This document shows, piece after piece, positions 1,902 to 18,938 of a stretch of 20,689 nt of DNA (its first letter is position 1; every line of letters starts with the position of its first letter). The stretch is from a virus. The notes beneath the pieces were generated by a model. It worked only from the letters and a program-made list of their open reading frames with translations. It had not been told where the DNA came from and did not search any database. The stretch is taken from positions 1 through 20,689 of IMG/VR virus record IMGVR_UViG_3300042090_002785; one strand, 5' to 3'. A program made the translations under genes and the position numbers.

Positions 1902-2363
1902 CTACGGCGCAACGTGGAGCCCGTCGGACTGGTAGGGCCTCGGTGCGACCGGCGGCCCGAACCGTCCGATCGCCTGCACTCCGATGTCCTCGCCGACGAG
2001 GCGTAGCGTCGCGGCCGGTGCGAGGTTGAACGTGTCGGTCCAGTCGTGCTCGTCGACGAAGCCCGCGCCGTGGTCGACCATCACCCGCTTCGGGCAGCCG
2101 GACGGCCCCATCTCGAACCGGAGCGCTCGCGCGGCCTCGTCGACCCGCACGATGCGCATTTCGGGGTGCCCCGCGCGCCAGGTCATGTGCTCGGCGCGTT
2201 CCTCGAGCAGCGCGCTGTGGTCTGACCAGGCGGCGATGGACAGCGTGACCGCGGATCCGAAGGCGATCAGCGAGCAGACACGCCACGTGCGGATGGCGCG
2301 CTCCACTGCGGCGTCCGTGTCGCGGTCGACCTCGTCGGGGGTCCGGTAGGGGTGATGGTTCAT
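1902..2363 (-). CDS. Single-pass membrane protein of unknown function
   Basis: This codes for 153 residues. The ATG at 2363 overlaps the TGA of the upstream gene (ATGA), indicating translational coupling. One hydrophobic helix covers residues 28..46 (RVCSLIAFGSAVTLSIAAW), preceded by a charged N-terminal tail (TPDEVDRDTDAAVERAIR). This predicts a cytoplasmic N-terminus and an external C-terminal domain of about 105 residues. That domain contains a beta-rich pattern (MRIVRVDEAARALRFEMGPS and HDWTDTFNLAPAATLRLVG). I recognise no family. Confidence 0.8.
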   Translation of the reverse strand: MNHHPYRTPDEVDRDTDAAVERAIRTWRVCSLIAFGSAVTLSIAAWSDHSALLEERAEHMTWRAGHPEMRIVRVDEAARALRFEMGPSGCPKRVMVDHGAGFVDEHDWTDTFNLAPAATLRLVGEDIGVQAIGRFGPPVAPRPYQSDGLHVAP

Positions 2364-3106
2364 CGGCGGCCTCGCTTCGGTGCCTGGTTGTAGTCGACCT
2401 CGGGGACGTCCTCGTCGTAGACCACCTTCGAGTCGGCGACCTCCGGCTCTTCCTGCGCGTGAGCCTGCATCTGCAACTCGAGCGCCGTCGCGCCGGCCGA
2501 CGCGGTCGAGATGCCGAGGTGGCCATCGTCTCGGACAGGCGTGCGCCTGAACGGGAGCGCCTTGCTGGGCAGTGGCGCCGCGCCGGTCGCGCGGGCGGCC
2601 GCCACCTCGAGCGCGCTAGGGCCCGGCGGCACTCCGAGCTCCTCGAGACACCGCGGGCAGTCGACCAGGTCGAGCTCGGTCGTCACGTTCTCGATGTCGC
2701 CGTCGATGTGGAGGCCGCACGCCGTGTCCGTCTCGGTGCGCAGGTGGGTCATCACACCGGGGACGCGCTTGGTGGGGTTGGCCGTCGCGCGTCCAGACCC
2801 GCCGCAGGCCCCGCACGGCTCCGTGCTCGCGACCGGGAAGTCAGCGCGGCGCGGGCATTCCTTGAAGTGCCGCGTCTCGTCCCTCCCGATGATCTGGTGG
2901 CAGACGCAGCCGCCCGGCAGCGCTACCAGCGCGTTCAGGCCGAGCCCCCTGCGCAGGGCCGCGTCGGCGATCTGGGAGATCGGGGTATGACCAGCCTCCG
3001 CGCGCTCGCGCAAAGCGGTCAGGACCTCGGGCGTGAGTGTGAACGTGGTCGCCGGCTTCCCACGCGGCGCACGGGCCGGCAGAGCCTTCTTCTTGGGCTT
3101 GGTCAT
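2360..3106 (-). CDS. Ribbon-helix-helix-like protein with zinc-binding cysteine pairs
   Basis: This codes for 248 residues. The ATG at 3106 is preferred over an upstream in-frame TTG because a -10 box ends five bases before it. After a basic tail (KPKKKALPARAPRGKP), residues about 20..56 (TFTLTPEVLTALRERA and SQIADAALRRGLGL) resemble a ribbon-helix-helix DNA-binding fold. Cysteines follow at 67, 69 and 84, then a DnaJ-like CGACGGSG at 98..105. A third group, C130 with C150 and C153 in T-x-C-G..CPRCLEEL, is of the kind seen in small phage zinc proteins. The C-terminus is acidic and ends in KRGRR. It heads a minus operon continuing to 1902 and 1641. A metal-containing DNA-binding regulator is likely, but no named family is recognised. 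Confidence 0.83.
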   Translation of the reverse strand: MTKPKKKALPARAPRGKPATTFTLTPEVLTALRERAEAGHTPISQIADAALRRGLGLNALVALPGGCVCHQIIGRDETRHFKECPRRADFPVASTEPCGACGGSGRATANPTKRVPGVMTHLRTETDTACGLHIDGDIENVTTELDLVDCPRCLEELGVPPGPSALEVAAARATGAAPLPSKALPFRRTPVRDDGHLGISTASAGATALELQMQAHAQEEPEVADSKVVYDEDVPEVDYNQAPKRGRR

Positions 3107-3111
3107 GCCAG

Positions 3112-3140
3112 ATGGTATGACCAAGCCTCCGCTGGGTCAA
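3112..3140 (-). promoter_or_regulatory. Strong sigma-70 promoter, leaderless type
   Basis: On the minus strand TTGACC (3135..3140) and TACCAT (3112..3117) are separated by exactly 17 bp. The -10 ends five bases before the ATG at 3106, so transcription should begin at or next to the start codon. The -35 overlaps the stop codon of the 3137..3331 gene. Confidence 0.72.
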
Positions 3141-5137: not shown

Positions 5138-5149
5138 TAGGATGCCGGC
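5138..5149 (+). promoter_or_regulatory. TAGGAT -10 box ahead of the terminase operon
   Basis: TAGGAT (5138..5143) lies six bases before the ATG at 5150, matching the leaderless pattern found elsewhere in the window. No good -35 is seen. The stretch 5138..5160 is nearly repeated at 7696..7718. Confidence 0.55.
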
Positions 5150-5382: not shown

Positions 5383-5640
5383 GTGCGCTGCCTCACGCCC
5401 GCCGAGTACCAGGCCCTCGAGCTCGCCGCATCGCCGTTCCGCGTGGTCTACGACGCGGCCGACCACGAGCAGGTCCTCGCGATGCTGCACATGCTCGTCG
5501 AGCGCGGCTGCGTCGTGATCCGCGAGCAGCCGCCGGTCATCACGTCCGAGACCACCGAGGATGTGACGTACGTCACGCACGTGACCGACCTCGGCCGCAT
5601 CGCCCTCCGCGTCAGCAAGCCTCTCGGCCCAGCCGCCTGA
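5383..5640 (+). CDS. Small hypothetical protein directly upstream of the terminase
   Basis: This codes for 85 residues from a GTG with GAGGAG five bases upstream. The protein is soluble, with a helical N-terminal half (LTPAEYQALELAASPF, HEQVLAMLHMLVERGC) and a beta-prone tail (VVIREQPPVITSETTEDVTY). Its TGA overlaps the ATG of the large terminase (TGATG), so terminase translation is probably coupled to it. Position suggests a packaging accessory, but nothing in the sequence proves this. Confidence 0.7.
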   Translation: MRCLTPAEYQALELAASPFRVVYDAADHEQVLAMLHMLVERGCVVIREQPPVITSETTEDVTYVTHVTDLGRIALRVSKPLGPAA

Positions 5641-7478
5641 TGCCGCGCGGAGCTCGGAAGCGAGAGGCGCCGCTCGCGGCGCCGGTCCTCGGCAACCTCG
5701 CCGAGTGGGCCGAGACCCTCGCCGCCAACGTCGTCAGCCACAAGCTCTCGACCCTCGAGAACCTCCGCGCGCTCTACCGGGACGACTTCGGCGCCTTCTG
5801 CCCGATCGTCAAGATCAACGACCGCGTGACCGGCGAGCCAATCCCGTTCGTGCCGAGCTGGGGACAGCGCACCTTCAACGAGCACCGCACCGGCCGCGAC
5901 CTCTGGAACAAGAGCCGCCAGGTCTACGCGACGACGAATGAGCTCGTGCGCGACGTCTGGTACTTACTCACGCACCGTGGCGCCTCCATCCAGATCGTCT
6001 GCCAGACGAAGAAGGACCGCGAAATCCTCCTCGACCTCGAGCGGCGCATCGACGTCATCCTCCAGTCCCTGATCGATGAGGGGCTCCAGATTCGCTACGC
6101 CGGCCGCGCGCAGGGCCGGTGGGAACTCGCGGTCGAGGATGGCGGCGCGGTCATGACGATCACCGAGGCCGGCGCCACGAAGGAGACCGCATCGAACGTC
6201 GGCCGCGGCGGCACGAAGCAGCGCATCCACTTCACCGAGGTCGCGTACTACCACATCGCCGCCGCCACGATGCGCGCCGCCCTCCCGACCGTGCACGGCG
6301 CCGCCGGCGACGGCACCGAGATCACCATGGAGAGCTCGCCGAACGGGATCTCCGTCCGCGACGGCTCGGGCAAGGAAAGCGGCGACGACTTCAACGCGGC
6401 CGGCGGCCCGTACTTTCACATCCAGTACCAGCGCGCGAAAGAGGGCAAGACCGACTTCACCGCGCACTTCACCCCCTGGTACAAGCACCCCGACTACTGC
6501 ACGGCGCTCGACCCGAACGAGGTCGTGCAGCCCGACCAGCAGCCGATCCATGACCGACGCCTTCGCGAGGAGCAACTCGTCGCGCTCGGCGTCTCGCCCG
6601 AGCAGCTCAAGTGGTACCGCCGGCAGGTCGCCTCGAAGGGCCAGAACAGCGTCGATCAGGAGTACCCGAGTGACGACCGCAGCTGCTTCCTCATCTCGGG
6701 ACGCGTCTTCTTCGACCGCGACGTGACGCTGGCGCTGCTCGCCGTTGCCCAGCGCAACATGCTCGGGCGCGAGGTCCGCACGATCCTTCGCGCGGGTGCG
6801 CAGGGCGAGCTCCGGCTCTACAAGCAGCCGGAGCCCGGGCACCGCTACCACATCACGGTCGACACCTCGAGCGGCGAGGGCGGCGACCCCGGCTCGCTCG
6901 TCGTGCACGACCGCTCGGCGCCGCGCGCGCCGCACGTCGCCACCCTGCACGGGCAGTTCCGCCCGCTCGAGCTCGCTCGGCTCGCGGTCGCGATCGGCGC
7001 CCGGTTCAACTGGGCGCAGGTCTGCGTCGAGCGCAACAACCACGGCAGCGCCGTGCTCCAGGAGCTCGAGCGGCCTGGCGTCATGTGGGACGTCTTCGGC
7101 GATGGGCTCGCCGAGTACCGCGCGATCGCCGCCCTGTCCGATCGGGCGCTCGCCTCGCTCCTGCCATGGGCCAAGGCGAAGCCGTGCTACCCGTGCGTCT
7201 GGAGGGACACGGACCAGCGGAGCGGCTGGTGGACCGGCGCGACAAGTCGGTCGGACGCGCTCTCGCTTCTCGAGCAGGACCACCGCGAGGGGGCCTGGGA
7301 AACACCCGACGTCGCGGTGCTCGACGAGATGCTGACTTTCGTCGTGCGCGCGAGGATCGCCGCCGACGCGGGGAGCCACGACGACCTCGTCATGGCGATG
7401 GTGATCGCGCACGCCGTGATGTCGCGGCCGCCCGAGCCTGGGATGTACCGCTCGCTCGGCAACCTCCCGCCGGCGTGA
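5640..7478 (+). CDS. terL: Phage terminase large subunit (packaging ATPase-nuclease)
   Basis: This codes for 612 residues. It pumps DNA into the prohead using ATP and cuts the concatemer. The N-terminal ATPase domain (about 60..250) has NKSRQVYATT at 90..99 in the Walker A position, a degenerate form typical of many terminases. It also has a Walker B-like RIHFTEVAYY at 195..204 and the motif III-like ITMESSPNG at 228..236. The C-terminal RNase H-like nuclease shows its acidic residues in ITVDTSSGEGGD (D408), VCVERNNHG (E464) and GSHDDLVMAM (D581/D582). Length is on the long side for the family. The ATG overlaps the preceding stop. Unusually, the portal gene does not follow but lies about 11.6 kb downstream. 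Confidence 0.95.
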   Translation: MPRGARKREAPLAAPVLGNLAEWAETLAANVVSHKLSTLENLRALYRDDFGAFCPIVKINDRVTGEPIPFVPSWGQRTFNEHRTGRDLWNKSRQVYATTNELVRDVWYLLTHRGASIQIVCQTKKDREILLDLERRIDVILQSLIDEGLQIRYAGRAQGRWELAVEDGGAVMTITEAGATKETASNVGRGGTKQRIHFTEVAYYHIAAATMRAALPTVHGAAGDGTEITMESSPNGISVRDGSGKESGDDFNAAGGPYFHIQYQRAKEGKTDFTAHFTPWYKHPDYCTALDPNEVVQPDQQPIHDRRLREEQLVALGVSPEQLKWYRRQVASKGQNSVDQEYPSDDRSCFLISGRVFFDRDVTLALLAVAQRNMLGREVRTILRAGAQGELRLYKQPEPGHRYHITVDTSSGEGGDPGSLVVHDRSAPRAPHVATLHGQFRPLELARLAVAIGARFNWAQVCVERNNHGSAVLQELERPGVMWDVFGDGLAEYRAIAALSDRALASLLPWAKAKPCYPCVWRDTDQRSGWWTGATSRSDALSLLEQDHREGAWETPDVAVLDEMLTFVVRARIAADAGSHDDLVMAMVIAHAVMSRPPEPGMYRSLGNLPPA

Positions 7479-7733: not shown

Positions 7734-8111
7734 ATGTACCCGAACAAGGGCCTAGGCCTGCTCCAGAAGGTGCGGTTGCGCGGCGGTGCAGTCGGTCCGC
7801 TCATCCTCGGCCCCCACTGCGAGTGGTGCAGCGCCCGAGCCGCCTGCCCCGCATTTGGCGCAGCCCTCCGACAAATTGCGCAAGGGCCAGACGTAGACCC
7901 GAGCGCCGCGATCGTGCCCTCGCGCCCGATGGCCGCCTACGTGGCCGGCATCATCCCCGCGATGCGCCGCGCGCTCGACGCCGCCGAAGCCGTGCCGCGC
8001 CCACGTCGAGGCTCACGGCCCGCTCACGCTCGCCGACGGCAAGGTCTACGGCCCCGCGCTCGAGCCGCGCCCGTCGCCACGTTCGCGCACATGGAGACAA
8101 CCAATGCTTGA
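7734..8111 (+). pseudogene. C-terminal remnant of a PD-(D/E)XK-type exonuclease, frameshifted
   Basis: The ATG at 7734 has GAGAGGTGG just upstream and opens 125 codons. Residues about 24..45 (LILGPHCEWCSARAACPAFG) match the cysteine cluster that closes many RecB-like or DUF2800-type phage exonucleases. The preceding nuclease core with its D/E and K residues is absent. After RRALDAAEA the natural reading continues one base later as HVEAHGPLTLADGKVYGPAL, so a +1 change near 7998..8002 (a CCC run) breaks the gene. Without the core it should not cleave DNA. It could be a decayed recombination nuclease or a frame-damaged fragment. Its stop overlaps the methyltransferase start. Confidence 0.6.
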
Positions 8112-8328
8112 CGCGCTTGACGTCTGCGCTGGCGCCGGCGGGCTCTCGCTCGGGTTGCATCGCGCGGGCTTCGACGTGCTGGGCGTCGAGGTGGACGCGG
8201 ACGCCTGCGAGACCCACCGGGCGAACGTAGGGCCCTGCGAAGAGGCTTCGATCGTCGACTGGCACCCGCCGCGATCGTTCGCGCTCGTAGCAGGCGGCGT
8301 CCCCTGCCAAGGGTTCTCCGTCGCGTGA
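8104..8328 (+). pseudogene. C5-cytosine DNA methyltransferase, truncated after motif IV
   Basis: This codes for 74 residues from an ATG with GGAG eight bases upstream. Motif I is clear (DVCAGAGGLSLGLHRAGF at about 6..23), as is the acidic cofactor-binding turn (GVEVDAD). The catalytic motif IV, GGVPCQGFS, is at 64..72 with C68 as the nucleophile. The TGA comes two codons later. Full-length enzymes of this family run to some 300 to 400 residues and need motifs VI, VIII, the target recognition domain, IX and X, none of which is found downstream in any frame I read. This looks like a remnant cut by recombination. A split enzyme with a partner elsewhere cannot be excluded. Confidence 0.85.
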
Positions 8329-8850: not shown

Positions 8851-8879
8851 TTGATCGGTTCCTGCTCGCGCGTTACGGT
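8851..8879 (+). promoter_or_regulatory. Leaderless promoter TTGATC-N17-TACGGT
   Basis: TTGATC (8851..8856) and TACGGT (8874..8879) are 17 bp apart. Seven bases separate the -10 from the ATG at 8887, placing the transcription start at the start codon. Confidence 0.7.
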
Positions 8880-12402: not shown

Positions 12403-12687
12403 GTGACCACGGTCGCCGAATGGCTGGAGCGGTTCGCTCGTCGCGTCGAGTGGCGCGACCCGTCGCTTGCGGGTGCTTGTCGTCGGAGGGCTGCGGAGCT
12501 CCTGACAGCGCCCGCACCTGTGGAGGAGCCCCGACTTGTAACCAGGGGCGCGGCGGTTCGACTCCGCCTGCGGGCTCCACATGACGTTCGTGGAAGAACA
12601 CCCGCTCGCGGTGACCGTGACGTTCATCGTCAACGGTCCGCGAGCCGGCGCGCGTGGGAACGCTCCAGCCACCTGGTGCTCCGGTGA
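12403..12687 (+). CDS. Small helical protein whose frame runs through the tRNA-like element
   Basis: Leaderless GTG at 12403. The first 37 residues (VAEWLERFARRVEWRDPSLA, GACRRRAAELLTAP) are convincing helical coding sequence. The next 24 codons coincide with the tRNA-like element at 12510..12579 and read unnaturally. The frame stays open to a TGA that overlaps the next ATG (TGATG at 12685..12689). The real protein may be the short N-terminal part, or the 94-residue product of a gene into which tRNA-like sequence was inserted. No function is recognised. Confidence 0.45.
   Translation: MTTVAEWLERFARRVEWRDPSLAGACRRRAAELLTAPAPVEEPRLVTRGAAVRLRLRAPHDVRGRTPARGDRDVHRQRSASRRAWERSSHLVLR
12510..12579 (+). 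tRNA. Degenerate tRNA-Thr(UGU)-like element with encoded CCA
   Basis: The acceptor stem GCCCGCA (12510..12516) pairs fully with TGCGGGC (12569..12575), followed by T and an encoded CCA (12577..12579). The T arm is perfect: GGCGG-TTCGACT-CCGCC (12552..12568). The anticodon loop CTTGTAA gives UGU (Thr), and the surrounding CGACTTGTAACCAG resembles bacterial tRNA-Thr(UGU). Two faults argue against a normal tRNA. The D arm is reduced to about ten bases with no stem, and the five-pair anticodon stem has two A-C mismatches. It is 67 nt without CCA, about six short. It may be a decayed phage tRNA, a captured tRNA end or a tRNA mimic. Confidence 0.5.
12581..12687 (+). CDS. Possible very small protein after the tRNA-like element
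   Basis: ATG 12581 reads MTFVEEHPLAVTVTFIVNG with good codon bias. Near 12640 the coding signal moves one base earlier (SASRRAWERSSHLVLR) and ends at the TGA that overlaps the next start. The joined product of about 36 residues needs a -1 shift. Weakly supported. Confidence 0.25.
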
Positions 12688-13927: not shown

Positions 13928-14301
13928 TCGCGACCGCAACCCCGACCAATGCGGGCGTGACCGTCGTCTGTGGCTACTGCGGCGCCATCGGCGGCACCTG
14001 CGGATGCTTCAGCTGGGGGGTGACCGGCGTGACGTGGGCGTACCCCACGCCGACCTCTATCCCATGGGGCAACGTCGGAAGCCTTGAGCCGTGGGAGGAT
14101 CCGGAGGCGCGCGAGGTCCGCCTCGCCCTCGAGCTCCGCGCGCTCGTCCACCGCTTCCGATTGCGTGACCGCGTCGACGAAGTCCGGTATCGTCGTCCTC
14201 GCGCGCCACCTCGGCGGCTGCCTCCTCCGCGCATCGCCTGGTCGGCCGCCTTGCAGCACTTCCACCGCCATCCGAAAGGGTTGTCCCGTTCATGGACCTG
14301 A
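13924..14301 (+). CDS. Hypothetical protein with CxxC-CxC cluster
   Basis: ATG at 13924, in ATGA overlap with the membrane microprotein's stop. Residues 1..90 look real: C16, C19, C26 and C28 in VVCGYCGAIGGTCGCFSWG suggest a small metal site. Tyrosine, proline and tryptophan-rich sequence follows (TWAYPTPTSIPWGNVGSL), then a helix (REVRLALELRALVHRFRLR). The last 35 residues are arginine- and proline-rich and coincide with a possible promoter and leader for the next gene, so the natural C-terminus may be shorter. No family is recognised. Confidence 0.55.
   Translation: MIATATPTNAGVTVVCGYCGAIGGTCGCFSWGVTGVTWAYPTPTSIPWGNVGSLEPWEDPEAREVRLALELRALVHRFRLRDRVDEVRYRRPRAPPRRLPPPRIAWSAALQHFHRHPKGLSRSWT
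14165..14193 (+). promoter_or_regulatory. Candidate promoter GTGACC-N17-TATCGT
   Basis: GTGACC (14165..14170) and TATCGT (14188..14193) are 17 bp apart. Transcription would start near 14200 and leave a leader of roughly 90 nt before 14292. It lies inside the 3' part of the preceding ORF, whose reading is weak there. Confidence 0.38.
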
Positions 14302-14918
14302 AAGACGCCGACCTCACGTGGATCCGATCGATCGAGCTCCAGCACGACGGCACCTTCCTCAAGGTCGAGCTCGCGGTCCCGATGGGGGCGAACGCCGGGG
14401 CAGCGAAGTACGAGGAGTTCATCCCCCTCGGCGCCTCCACGCCGAAGTACCTCGACAAGGCCGCGCACGCCTTCGCCGAGGCGGTCGTGAAGGCGATCCG
14501 CGAGCGCGTGGTCACCAAGGTCCCCGAGGTGAAGTGCGTGACCTGCACCGCGGCGTGTTGCGCCCGCGTCTACAACGAGGTCGCGGTCACCGGCGAGGAC
14601 GCGCGCGTCATGGGGGCCGAGCTCGTCGCCAAGGGGGTCGAGCTCTACCCGAACGGGGAGCGGTCGAACGGGTACGTCGGCCTGCTCAAGCGGATCCCGT
14701 GGAAGGGCAAGGGCACGGCGACGATCCCCATCGACTCCGAGCCGATGGCGTGCATCTTCCTCGACCCGAAGTCGTCGGTGTGCACGGTCTACGAGCGCCG
14801 GCCGAATGTCTGCCGCACCTTCCACCCGCACGAGTGCGACGTGCACGAACCGGCGCCCGAGCCGCTGGTGCAACTCCGGCGCGCGCGGTTCGCCGCCGGC
14901 GCCGTGCAGAAGGGGTAG
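14292..14918 (+). CDS. YkgJ-family cysteine-cluster protein
   Basis: This codes for 208 residues. The family (YkgJ, formerly UPF0153) is thought to bind zinc or an iron-sulfur cluster; a defined reaction is not known. The hallmark is present: C82, C85, C89 and C90 (KCVTCTAACCARVYNEVAVT), a helical middle, then C154 in ACIFLDPKSSVCTVYERRPN, with C164, C174 and C182 in VCRTFHPHEC. The N-terminal 75 residues (WIRSIELQHDG, FLKVELAVPMG) form a beta-prone domain outside the usual core. The ATG has only a distant AAAGGG. The next gene starts four bases after its stop codon. In phages such proteins are accessory. Confidence 0.85.
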   Translation: MDLKDADLTWIRSIELQHDGTFLKVELAVPMGANAGAAKYEEFIPLGASTPKYLDKAAHAFAEAVVKAIRERVVTKVPEVKCVTCTAACCARVYNEVAVTGEDARVMGAELVAKGVELYPNGERSNGYVGLLKRIPWKGKGTATIPIDSEPMACIFLDPKSSVCTVYERRPNVCRTFHPHECDVHEPAPEPLVQLRRARFAAGAVQKG

Positions 14919-14922
14919 GCCC

Positions 14923-15984
14923 ATGGCGGATCGGATCGCGCAGATGATCGTGGAGCTCCGCGACGAGCTGCACGAGGTCACCCGGCGCCAGGAGCGAATC
15001 CAGGCCGCGCTCGCCGCGCTCGAGCCGCTTTCGGATGCGGCACCGCCGCGGAGGCCGCGCGCTCTCATGCCACAGCGGACGCCGAAGGCCGCTCGTGCAC
15101 CGAACCGGGTGAAGGAGGCCGCGAAGCGCATCGGCTTCATCGCGCCATCGCGCGAAGGCACGCTCGCCGTCCTGACCGACAAGTGGCAGTCACCGGCCGA
15201 TCTGGTCAAGGCCTCTGGCATCACGCCGAACGCGCTCCGGGCGCAGCTCTACAGCCTGCGCAGGGAAGGCCTCGCGGAGTCGAACGGCGAGCGCACCATC
15301 TCGATCCGGTGGCGCCTGAACTCGACCGGCACCGCGCTGCGGAAGCTCACGACCCGAGAGCCGCGCAAGCGCGGGCGGCCGGCGAAGGGGCAGACGGTCG
15401 CCGACGAGGCGCCACAGCACGCGCTACCGGAGACGCTCGACGCCCTGTCCGCGCGCGAGCGCACGGTCCTCGAGAAGCGCGATCTTGGCGGCAAGATCCG
15501 CAAGGACATCGCCGCCGACATCGGCGTCAGCACGGAACGGGCGCGCCAGATCGAGGTGCGCGCTCGCAGGAAGCTCCGCCGCGCCGCGGGCGTCACTGTA
15601 GAGCAGGTCGGGAACGATGCCCCGCGCCTGACCGCGCCGTCGCCCAAGCGGGTCTCGCTTCCGGTCGTACCAGCCTCCTATGTGCCGCTCGAGGTGGTTT
15701 CTGTCGCCGACCTCGTGCGACCCGACCAGCGCTTCAAGTGCGTGCCGTTCTCGGCGGTCATCCGGGCGTCGCAGTGCCTCGAGCGCCAGGGGGTCGCCGG
15801 CTCCCGCGTGAAGATCGGATCGACGAAGGGGACGGGCGCGCGCGTGCACGAGATCGACCACAACGCGCGGTCGCGTCAATTCGAGCGGTGCAAGGACTGC
15901 GAACTCGGCCGGCAGGTCGCAGCACGCGTCACCGTCGGGCCGGTCAAGGACATCGCCAAGCTCGAGATGAGCCCGACCGGATGA
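14923..15984 (+). CDS. Composite transcription regulator with sigma-70 region 4-like HTH
   Basis: This codes for 353 residues. In order: a coiled coil at 1..35 (MIVELRDELHEVTRRQERIQ); a basic linker; a winged helix at about 78..130 (LTDKWQSPADLVKASGITPN, ALRAQLYSLRREGLAE); an AT-hook-like RKRGRPAKG at 148..156; and a helix-turn-helix at 174..220 (LSARERTVLEKRD, IAADIGVSTERARQIEVRAR) that matches sigma-70 region 4. Last comes a cysteine module with C273, C285, C323 and C326 (CVPFSAVIRASQCLERQ, CKDCELG). Sigma region 2 is absent, so it cannot be a complete sigma factor. It is more likely a phage late-gene activator or a host-polymerase modifier that contacts -35 DNA. It starts four bases after the YkgJ stop and is coupled by ATGA to the next gene. 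Confidence 0.83.
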   Translation: MADRIAQMIVELRDELHEVTRRQERIQAALAALEPLSDAAPPRRPRALMPQRTPKAARAPNRVKEAAKRIGFIAPSREGTLAVLTDKWQSPADLVKASGITPNALRAQLYSLRREGLAESNGERTISIRWRLNSTGTALRKLTTREPRKRGRPAKGQTVADEAPQHALPETLDALSARERTVLEKRDLGGKIRKDIAADIGVSTERARQIEVRARRKLRRAAGVTVEQVGNDAPRLTAPSPKRVSLPVVPASYVPLEVVSVADLVRPDQRFKCVPFSAVIRASQCLERQGVAGSRVKIGSTKGTGARVHEIDHNARSRQFERCKDCELGRQVAARVTVGPVKDIAKLEMSPTG

Positions 15985-16304
15985 GCGCGTACCGCACGAA
16001 GCTCGAGCTCCCGCCGGAGCCGCGGTCGCCTCCGAGCGCGCGGTGCCCGGTGAACGGCAACCACATGTGGCTTTGGATGGACGCGCTCCGGCAGTCGTAC
16101 CCGCCAGCCGGCACGGACATCTGGTGCGGGTACTGCCGCGAGGAGAGCAACGTCGACCTGCTCGTCGGCGGCCACCCGTTCACGCCTCGAGACCCTCGCG
16201 CATGCTGGCCAGGCGATGGGCCTGGATGGGCTCGCCGGCTTGCCCTTCGCGCGCACGCCGCGCTGATCGGGTTCGTGCGCGCAATGTTCGACGTTGAAGC
16301 GTGA
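15981..16304 (+). CDS. Small zinc-ribbon-like protein
   Basis: This codes for 107 residues from an ATG overlapping the regulator's stop. C22, H28, C49 and C52 (RCPVNGNHMW, IWCGYCREES) form a treble-clef-like pair of knuckles. The C-terminal third is helical and slightly hydrophobic (RRLALRAHAALIGFVRAMFD). Co-expression with the regulator suggests a partner role, but nothing specific is recognised. Confidence 0.75.
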   Translation: MSAYRTKLELPPEPRSPPSARCPVNGNHMWLWMDALRQSYPPAGTDIWCGYCREESNVDLLVGGHPFTPRDPRACWPGDGPGWARRLALRAHAALIGFVRAMFDVEA

Positions 16305-18841: not shown

Positions 18842-18854
18842 GGCGATGACACTA
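18842..18854 (-). promoter_or_regulatory. TAGTGT -10 box of the lysis operon
   Basis: On the minus strand TAGTGT (18849..18854) lies seven bases before the ATG at 18841. No recognisable -35; activation by a bound regulator at the nearby inverted repeats is possible. Confidence 0.6.
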
Positions 18855-18901: not shown

Positions 18902-18938
18902 TGTGCCTACGAATGGCACAGATCCACGTGTGCCATTC
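18902..18938. promoter_or_regulatory. Operator-like cluster of TGTGCC half-sites
   Basis: GAATGGCACA (18911..18920) and TGTGCCATTC (18929..18938) form a perfect ten-base inverted repeat with an 8-bp centre. An extra TGTGCC (18902..18907) pairs with GGCACA (18915..18920) across seven bases, so three half-sites lie about 13 to 14 bp apart. No T run follows, which argues against a terminator. The site lies between the minus lysis promoter and the portal gene. The rest of 18855..19054 holds a C9 run (19012..19020) and no convincing gene or strict TAnnnT box before the portal. Confidence 0.6.

Follow-up and report, generated by a model that had tools for sequence, protein, structure and literature searches.

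Region 4 of sigma-70 factors contacts the β flap of RNA polymerase (RNAP) through its helices H1, H2 and H5 (PMC2988021). The same domain is found on a polypeptide of its own in SigO of Bacillus subtilis, which works with a region-2 partner (PMC8103513), and the T4 factors gp33, AsiA and MotA work at the junction of sigma region 4 and the β flap (PMC7892883, PMC2988021). Phages also encode the RinA/Ltr late regulators, which are about 130 amino acids long and whose gene lies directly upstream of the late promoter (PMC13123087). Here, we describe P0001, a 353-residue protein encoded at nucleotides 14923–15984 (+ strand) of the virus record IMGVR_UViG_3300042090_002785; the window analysed spans the whole of this IMG/VR record (20,689 bases, 70% GC), which is possibly a genome fragment. 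P0001 carries a sigma-type region 4 together with several other modules in one chain, the composite architecture that a preliminary description of the sequence had proposed. Our preferred reading, to which we assign a probability of roughly 0.55, is that it is a sequence-specific transcription regulator of the phage, in which the region 4 helix–turn–helix (HTH) reads a −35-like site and the other domains hold nearby DNA.

The region 4 domain

The Pfam profile Sigma70_r4 (PF04545) matches residues 172–219 of P0001 with a score of 40.2 bits and an E value of 2.3e-10. With the modelled fold, the domain is placed at residues 168–223 (nucleotides 15424–15591; all features of P0001 are on the + strand) and covers the full region 4 including 4.1, which goes beyond a bare HTH. 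The best sequence matches of P0001 are region 4 of RpoH, RpoD, RpoS and SigA; the PHROGs and NCBIfam matches are also sigma factors, with RpoH ranking first among the curated RpoH, RpoD and RpoS models. Against the sequences in the PDB the full protein matched region 4 of RpoS, SigA and RpoD (E = 0.0024), and the region 4 fragment alone gave no phmmer match at E ≤ 0.01.

Two models were used. The single-sequence AlphaFold model of the whole chain has a mean predicted local distance difference test (pLDDT) score of 45 and is good for helix outlines only. The second model covers residues 60–226 and was built with 12 region 4 rows from viral loci; these rows were chosen as region-4-like and so steered the modelled fold to some extent. 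The model contains four region 4 helices with pLDDT values of 93–98, and superposes on PDB entry 1ku3 (region 4 of Thermus aquaticus sigma-A) with a Z-score of 9.3 and 1.2 Å over 57 residues at 39% identity. It also superposes on region 4 of sigma-D and sigma-28, and the Foldseek match list consists of sigma factors almost throughout. As modelled, the domain has true region 4 topology. A single known fold without this topology had been named as the outcome that would speak against the assignment, and the modelling gave region 4 instead. An identity as a terminase or replication protein was rejected, as the profile searches listed no such domain.

The recognition helix, TERARQIEVRARRKLRR (residues 204–220, nucleotides 15532–15582, placed from sequence and model), retains E-R-x-R-Q. 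Sigma-70 factors read the −35 element with this signature, and the contact residues are those of Escherichia coli sigma-70; P0001 has a threonine at what we take to be the position of the first arginine of sigma-70, where RpoH presumably also differs. The fuller motif E-R-A-R-Q-I-E is close to bacterial region 4 and is common to the viral region 4 comparators, which were selected by this motif itself.

No match to region 2 (PF04542) was found at E ≤ 10 in P0001 or anywhere in the contig. Of the sigma-70 family features P0001 therefore has region 4 and lacks region 2, and both halves of the earlier claim, a good region 4 match and its occurrence without region 2, are borne out. Such a protein might be the region 4 half of a split sigma factor that forms a phage-specific holoenzyme with a separate region 2 protein, as SigO does with RsoA in B. 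subtilis (PMC8103513). There is, however, no region 2 protein in the whole 20.7 kb contig, although the contig is a fragment. We know of no extra DNA-binding domains in SigO, to which those of P0001 would be foreign, and we consider a split sigma factor quite unlikely.

Modules outside region 4 and their recurrence

The N-terminus of P0001 is a long helix in the whole-chain model (residues 2–38, nucleotides 14926–15036; pLDDT mostly 80–89, with 64 near its end), which is probably a coiled coil or dimerization helix. It is followed in the sequence by a basic Pro/Ala/Arg-rich linker (residues 41–69, nucleotides 15043–15129) and by a winged-helix-like segment, putatively DNA-binding (residues 79–132, nucleotides 15157–15318). 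Both models place helices at residues 91–98 and 102–114 and strands at 118–120 and 126–129 in this segment with pLDDT values of about 50–68; the helix–helix–strand–strand order over residues 91–129 fits a winged-helix topology, at low model confidence. By sequence the segment has only a sub-threshold match to the ArsR-type HTH_5 family (E = 0.2), and the PDB sequences gave chance matches only. We regard a winged-helix-like segment as plausible, with moderate confidence. The second DNA-binding domain proposed earlier is thus weaker than region 4, with its topology seen at low confidence in two models and its sequence match below threshold.

Residues 147–156 (nucleotides 15361–15390) read PRKRGRPAKG, in which the core RGRP (GRP) has the basic flanks of an AT-hook. 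The AT-hook-like patch noticed previously is therefore present; it is a textbook AT-hook core by sequence, for which AT-tract binding is predicted. The Pfam scan of P0001 listed no AT_hook match.

P0001 has four cysteines in all (C273, C285, C323 and C326), and these lie in a module of the form F-x-C-x11-C-x2-R-Q...C-x2-C-x2-G-R (residues 271–330, nucleotides 15733–15912). A DNA pattern for F-x-C-x11-C-x2-R-Q returned 119 viral stretches, three of which run on in frame with C-x2-3-C-x2-G inside 60 residues, where about 0.23 would be expected (background 0.19%). A narrower pattern brought in L337/L362, L359 and L366, so that with L313, L333 and L335 the module is present in six other viral loci; the CX11C...CX2C module of the preliminary description is real and recurrent. 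The invariant alignment columns fit F-x-C-x11-C-x2-R-Q and then C-x2-C-x2-G, both of which P0001 has. A profile of the six other loci gives P0001 an E value of 5.7e-4 against 5000 shuffles, the next best being 0.04; the loci were picked by the first half of the motif, so this result is partly circular, the second half and the flanks alone being independent. These loci share F-x-C-x11-C-x2-R-Q...C-x2-3(5)-C-x2-G with P0001, but have the module at or near the N-terminus, are not seen with region 4 and mostly contain an extra cysteine in the x11 spacer. An HTH follows the module in L333 and zinc-ribbon-like segments follow it in L335 and L366. Searching Acidobacteriota genomes for the module gave background only. 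Metal binding by the four cysteines is putative. A DNA pattern for RQIEVRA was also tried as a probe and was discarded, as it gave chance matches only.

No full-length relative of P0001 was found in IMG/VR or in the GTDB species genomes using peptide-seeded scans, the 8-mer seeding of which has low sensitivity, such that distant relatives may exist. The 49 viral records that carry a related terminase contained none either, and tblastn in INPHARED and PLSDB matched region 4 alone. A scan of viral contigs for E-R-A-R-Q-I-E brought up region-4-only proteins alongside complete sigma factors; the five that were run through Pfam (L169, L184, L188, L153 and L194) have PF04545 over the cut-off and no region 2, as P0001 does on its own viral contig. 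Several of the region-4-only proteins have extra segments: an HTH-like N-terminus in L169/L179, a ribbon–helix–helix (RHH)-like segment in L184 (RHH_1, E = 0.086) and a cysteine cluster of the type CPWVGCRHHL in L185, L188, L194 and L138, with the partner-domain matches lying below the Pfam cut-offs. These proteins resemble P0001 in that their region 4 has no region 2 with it and adjoins another segment; they differ from it in the partner segments and their order, and no likeness was noticed outside region 4. Stand-alone region 4 with adjoining modules is thus a recurring and poorly studied phage kind. The exact assembly of P0001 was seen nowhere else in the searched sets, in keeping with the earlier remark that this architecture is not known from a named family; its region 4 and cysteine parts recur in phage proteins.

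Proposed role, promoter boxes and genomic setting

In the mechanism that we prefer, the sigma-type HTH would read a −35-like half site, while the winged-helix segment and the AT-hook would hold adjacent, probably upstream, DNA. The N-terminal helix would probably dimerize P0001, and the C-terminal four-cysteine module would probably bind metal and either stabilize the chain or make protein contacts. We infer DNA binding outside region 4, dimerization and metal binding, as well as the controlled genes and the choice between activation (via the RNAP β flap or the host sigma factor) and repression. We lean slightly towards activation of a phage promoter set, given that the region 4 of P0001 resembles that of whole sigma factors.

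Several points weigh against this reading. No target site for P0001 was identified, the winged helix comes from a low-confidence model and, with no relatives found, conservation speaks only for residues in region 4 and the cysteine module. The contig is also a fragment. Helices H1 and H2 of region 4 are present, but H5 is not seen after residue 221, where the whole-chain model is low-confidence coil and the second model ends at residue 226. With H5 not seen and the model poor there, P0001 may or may not contact RNAP; binding to the β flap is possible.

That H5 is not seen in the model also favours the main alternative: that P0001 is a repressor or architectural protein which reuses a region 4 HTH, never contacts RNAP and bridges DNA multivalently through its winged helix, AT-hook and coiled coil. 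The coiled coil, the AT-hook and two DNA-binding domains would suit such a protein, as would the repressor-type segments in the viral region-4-only proteins (HTH-like in L169/L179 and RHH-like in L184, below the Pfam cut-offs). On the other hand, the match in P0001 extends over a complete region 4, with 4.1 included (168–223), and goes beyond a bare HTH; we find this alternative doubtful, although far from negligible. That P0001 is instead a single-chain adaptor, whose own region 4 drives that of the host sigma factor off the β flap and whose winged helix and AT-hook give new upstream specificity, as a one-protein counterpart of T4 AsiA plus MotA, seems unlikely.

The preliminary description had P0001 bridging RNAP to TA(G/C)NNT promoters. 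Boxes of this type, as in leaderless-type promoters, stand 5–7 nt ahead of ATG or GTG at 5138, 7695, 8874, 9327, 10081 and 12390 (+) and at 18854 and 3117 (−). Counting those 6–7 nt ahead of start codons, eight were observed versus 2.9 ± 1.7 by chance, and 4/200 shuffles reach eight. In high-GC bacteria, leaderless genes are known to be marked by TANNNT some 12 bp ahead of the start codon (PMC3160421), and the boxes here resemble ordinary −10 elements of leaderless host sigma-A promoters. In at least two cases a canonical −35 precedes the box by 17 bp (TTGACC-N17-TACCAT at 3117, minus strand; TTGATC-N17-TACGGT at 8874); with a good −35 at this spacing host sigma-A should suffice and a phage adaptor would not be needed. 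For bridging, P0001 would replace host sigma region 4 on the β flap and host sigma region 2 would read the −10 box. Promoter-like boxes do exist, region 4 is genuine and T4, with AsiA/MotA and gp33, offers precedents for a phage factor at the β flap; against this stand the ordinary sigma-A character of the boxes and the lack of any common extra element seen for the second DNA-binding domain, for which no systematic motif search was made. No evidence links P0001 to the boxes; the bridging claim is unsupported, and we regard it as very unlikely. The minus-strand gene 2360–3124 has a 15 nt, 93% inverted repeat (3096–3127) across its −10 box and start codon, which is a possible autoregulation site; by eye, the N-terminus of the gene product resembles an RHH regulator, with no Pfam match.

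The open reading frame (ORF) of P0001 runs from ATG 14923 to a stop at 15982–15984 and has GC contents of 0.71/0.53/0.88 at codon positions 1/2/3; 5' of the ATG, the same frame has a third-position GC content of 0.67. A Shine–Dalgarno-like AGAAGGGG lies immediately 5' of the ATG, and this is a genuine coding gene. It sits among tightly packed neighbours in an operon-like + strand cluster (14292–16304): the upstream gene (14292–14918) encodes a CxxCxxCC domain (PF03692, E = 1.8e-9) and the downstream gene overlaps by ATGA at 15981. A frame from about 19058 to the contig end, ∼3 kb past the P0001 gene and with minus-strand frames between, is portal-like by sequence and had no NCBIfam match. Between divergent minus-strand genes and this portal-like gene lies a perfect, operator-like 10 bp inverted repeat (18911–18938; GAATGGCACA-N8-TGTGCCATTC); the palindrome at 18915–18934 had no further match in the window beyond chance. 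The terminase large subunit gene is at 5640–7478, and its relatives in bacterial genomes are 24–29% identical and mostly from Acidobacteriota.

Elsewhere in the window, 12535–12579 resembles the 3' half of a tRNA gene (a CTTGTAA loop, the T-arm GGCGGTTCGACTCCGCC and then GGGCTCCA) without a 5' half; neither ARAGORN nor Rfam gave a whole tRNA here, and the stretch is a possible attP core. An exact 98 bp direct repeat (1–98 and 821–918), in frame in ORFs 31–606 and 689–1078, is either an assembly artefact or a gene duplication at the contig edge. Nucleotides 8104–8328 encode only 74 residues of what by eye is a cytosine-C5 methyltransferase-like N-terminus (DVCAGAGGLSLGLHRAGF...GGVPCQGFSVA) before a stop, suggesting a fragment or decayed gene. 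At 1075–1536 a LexA DNA-binding domain (PF01726, E = 1.2e-21) is joined to a C-terminus without a listed peptidase domain.

Comparison with known regulators

Viral contigs carry sigma region 4 proteins without region 2. P0001 and its comparators point to region 4 as a self-contained part, circulating among phages, that would read DNA, may also dock on the polymerase and occurs in fusion with other DNA-binding and cysteine modules.

P0001 is similar to region 4 (PF04545) of RpoH, RpoD and SigA in its fold, its recognition-helix sequence and the 39% identity to T. aquaticus sigma-A over 57 residues, but it has no region 1.2, 2 or 3 and is joined to a winged-helix-like segment, an AT-hook and a cysteine module. 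It shares with SigO a region 4 on its own polypeptide, whereas the region 2 partner of SigO (PMC8103513) has no counterpart in the P0001 contig. RinA/Ltr (PMC13123087) and P0001 are both phage-encoded regulators, and a role in late gene control is possible for P0001; it is 353 residues long and lies ∼3 kb from the portal-like gene, with what seem to be two opposite-strand genes in between, and falls outside the RinA/Ltr definition in length and position. With T4 gp33 and AsiA/MotA the analogy would be one of function: gp33 has no structural relationship to region 4, and AsiA and MotA are separate proteins that remodel the host region 4 (PMC7892883, PMC2988021), whereas P0001 carries a region 4 of its own.
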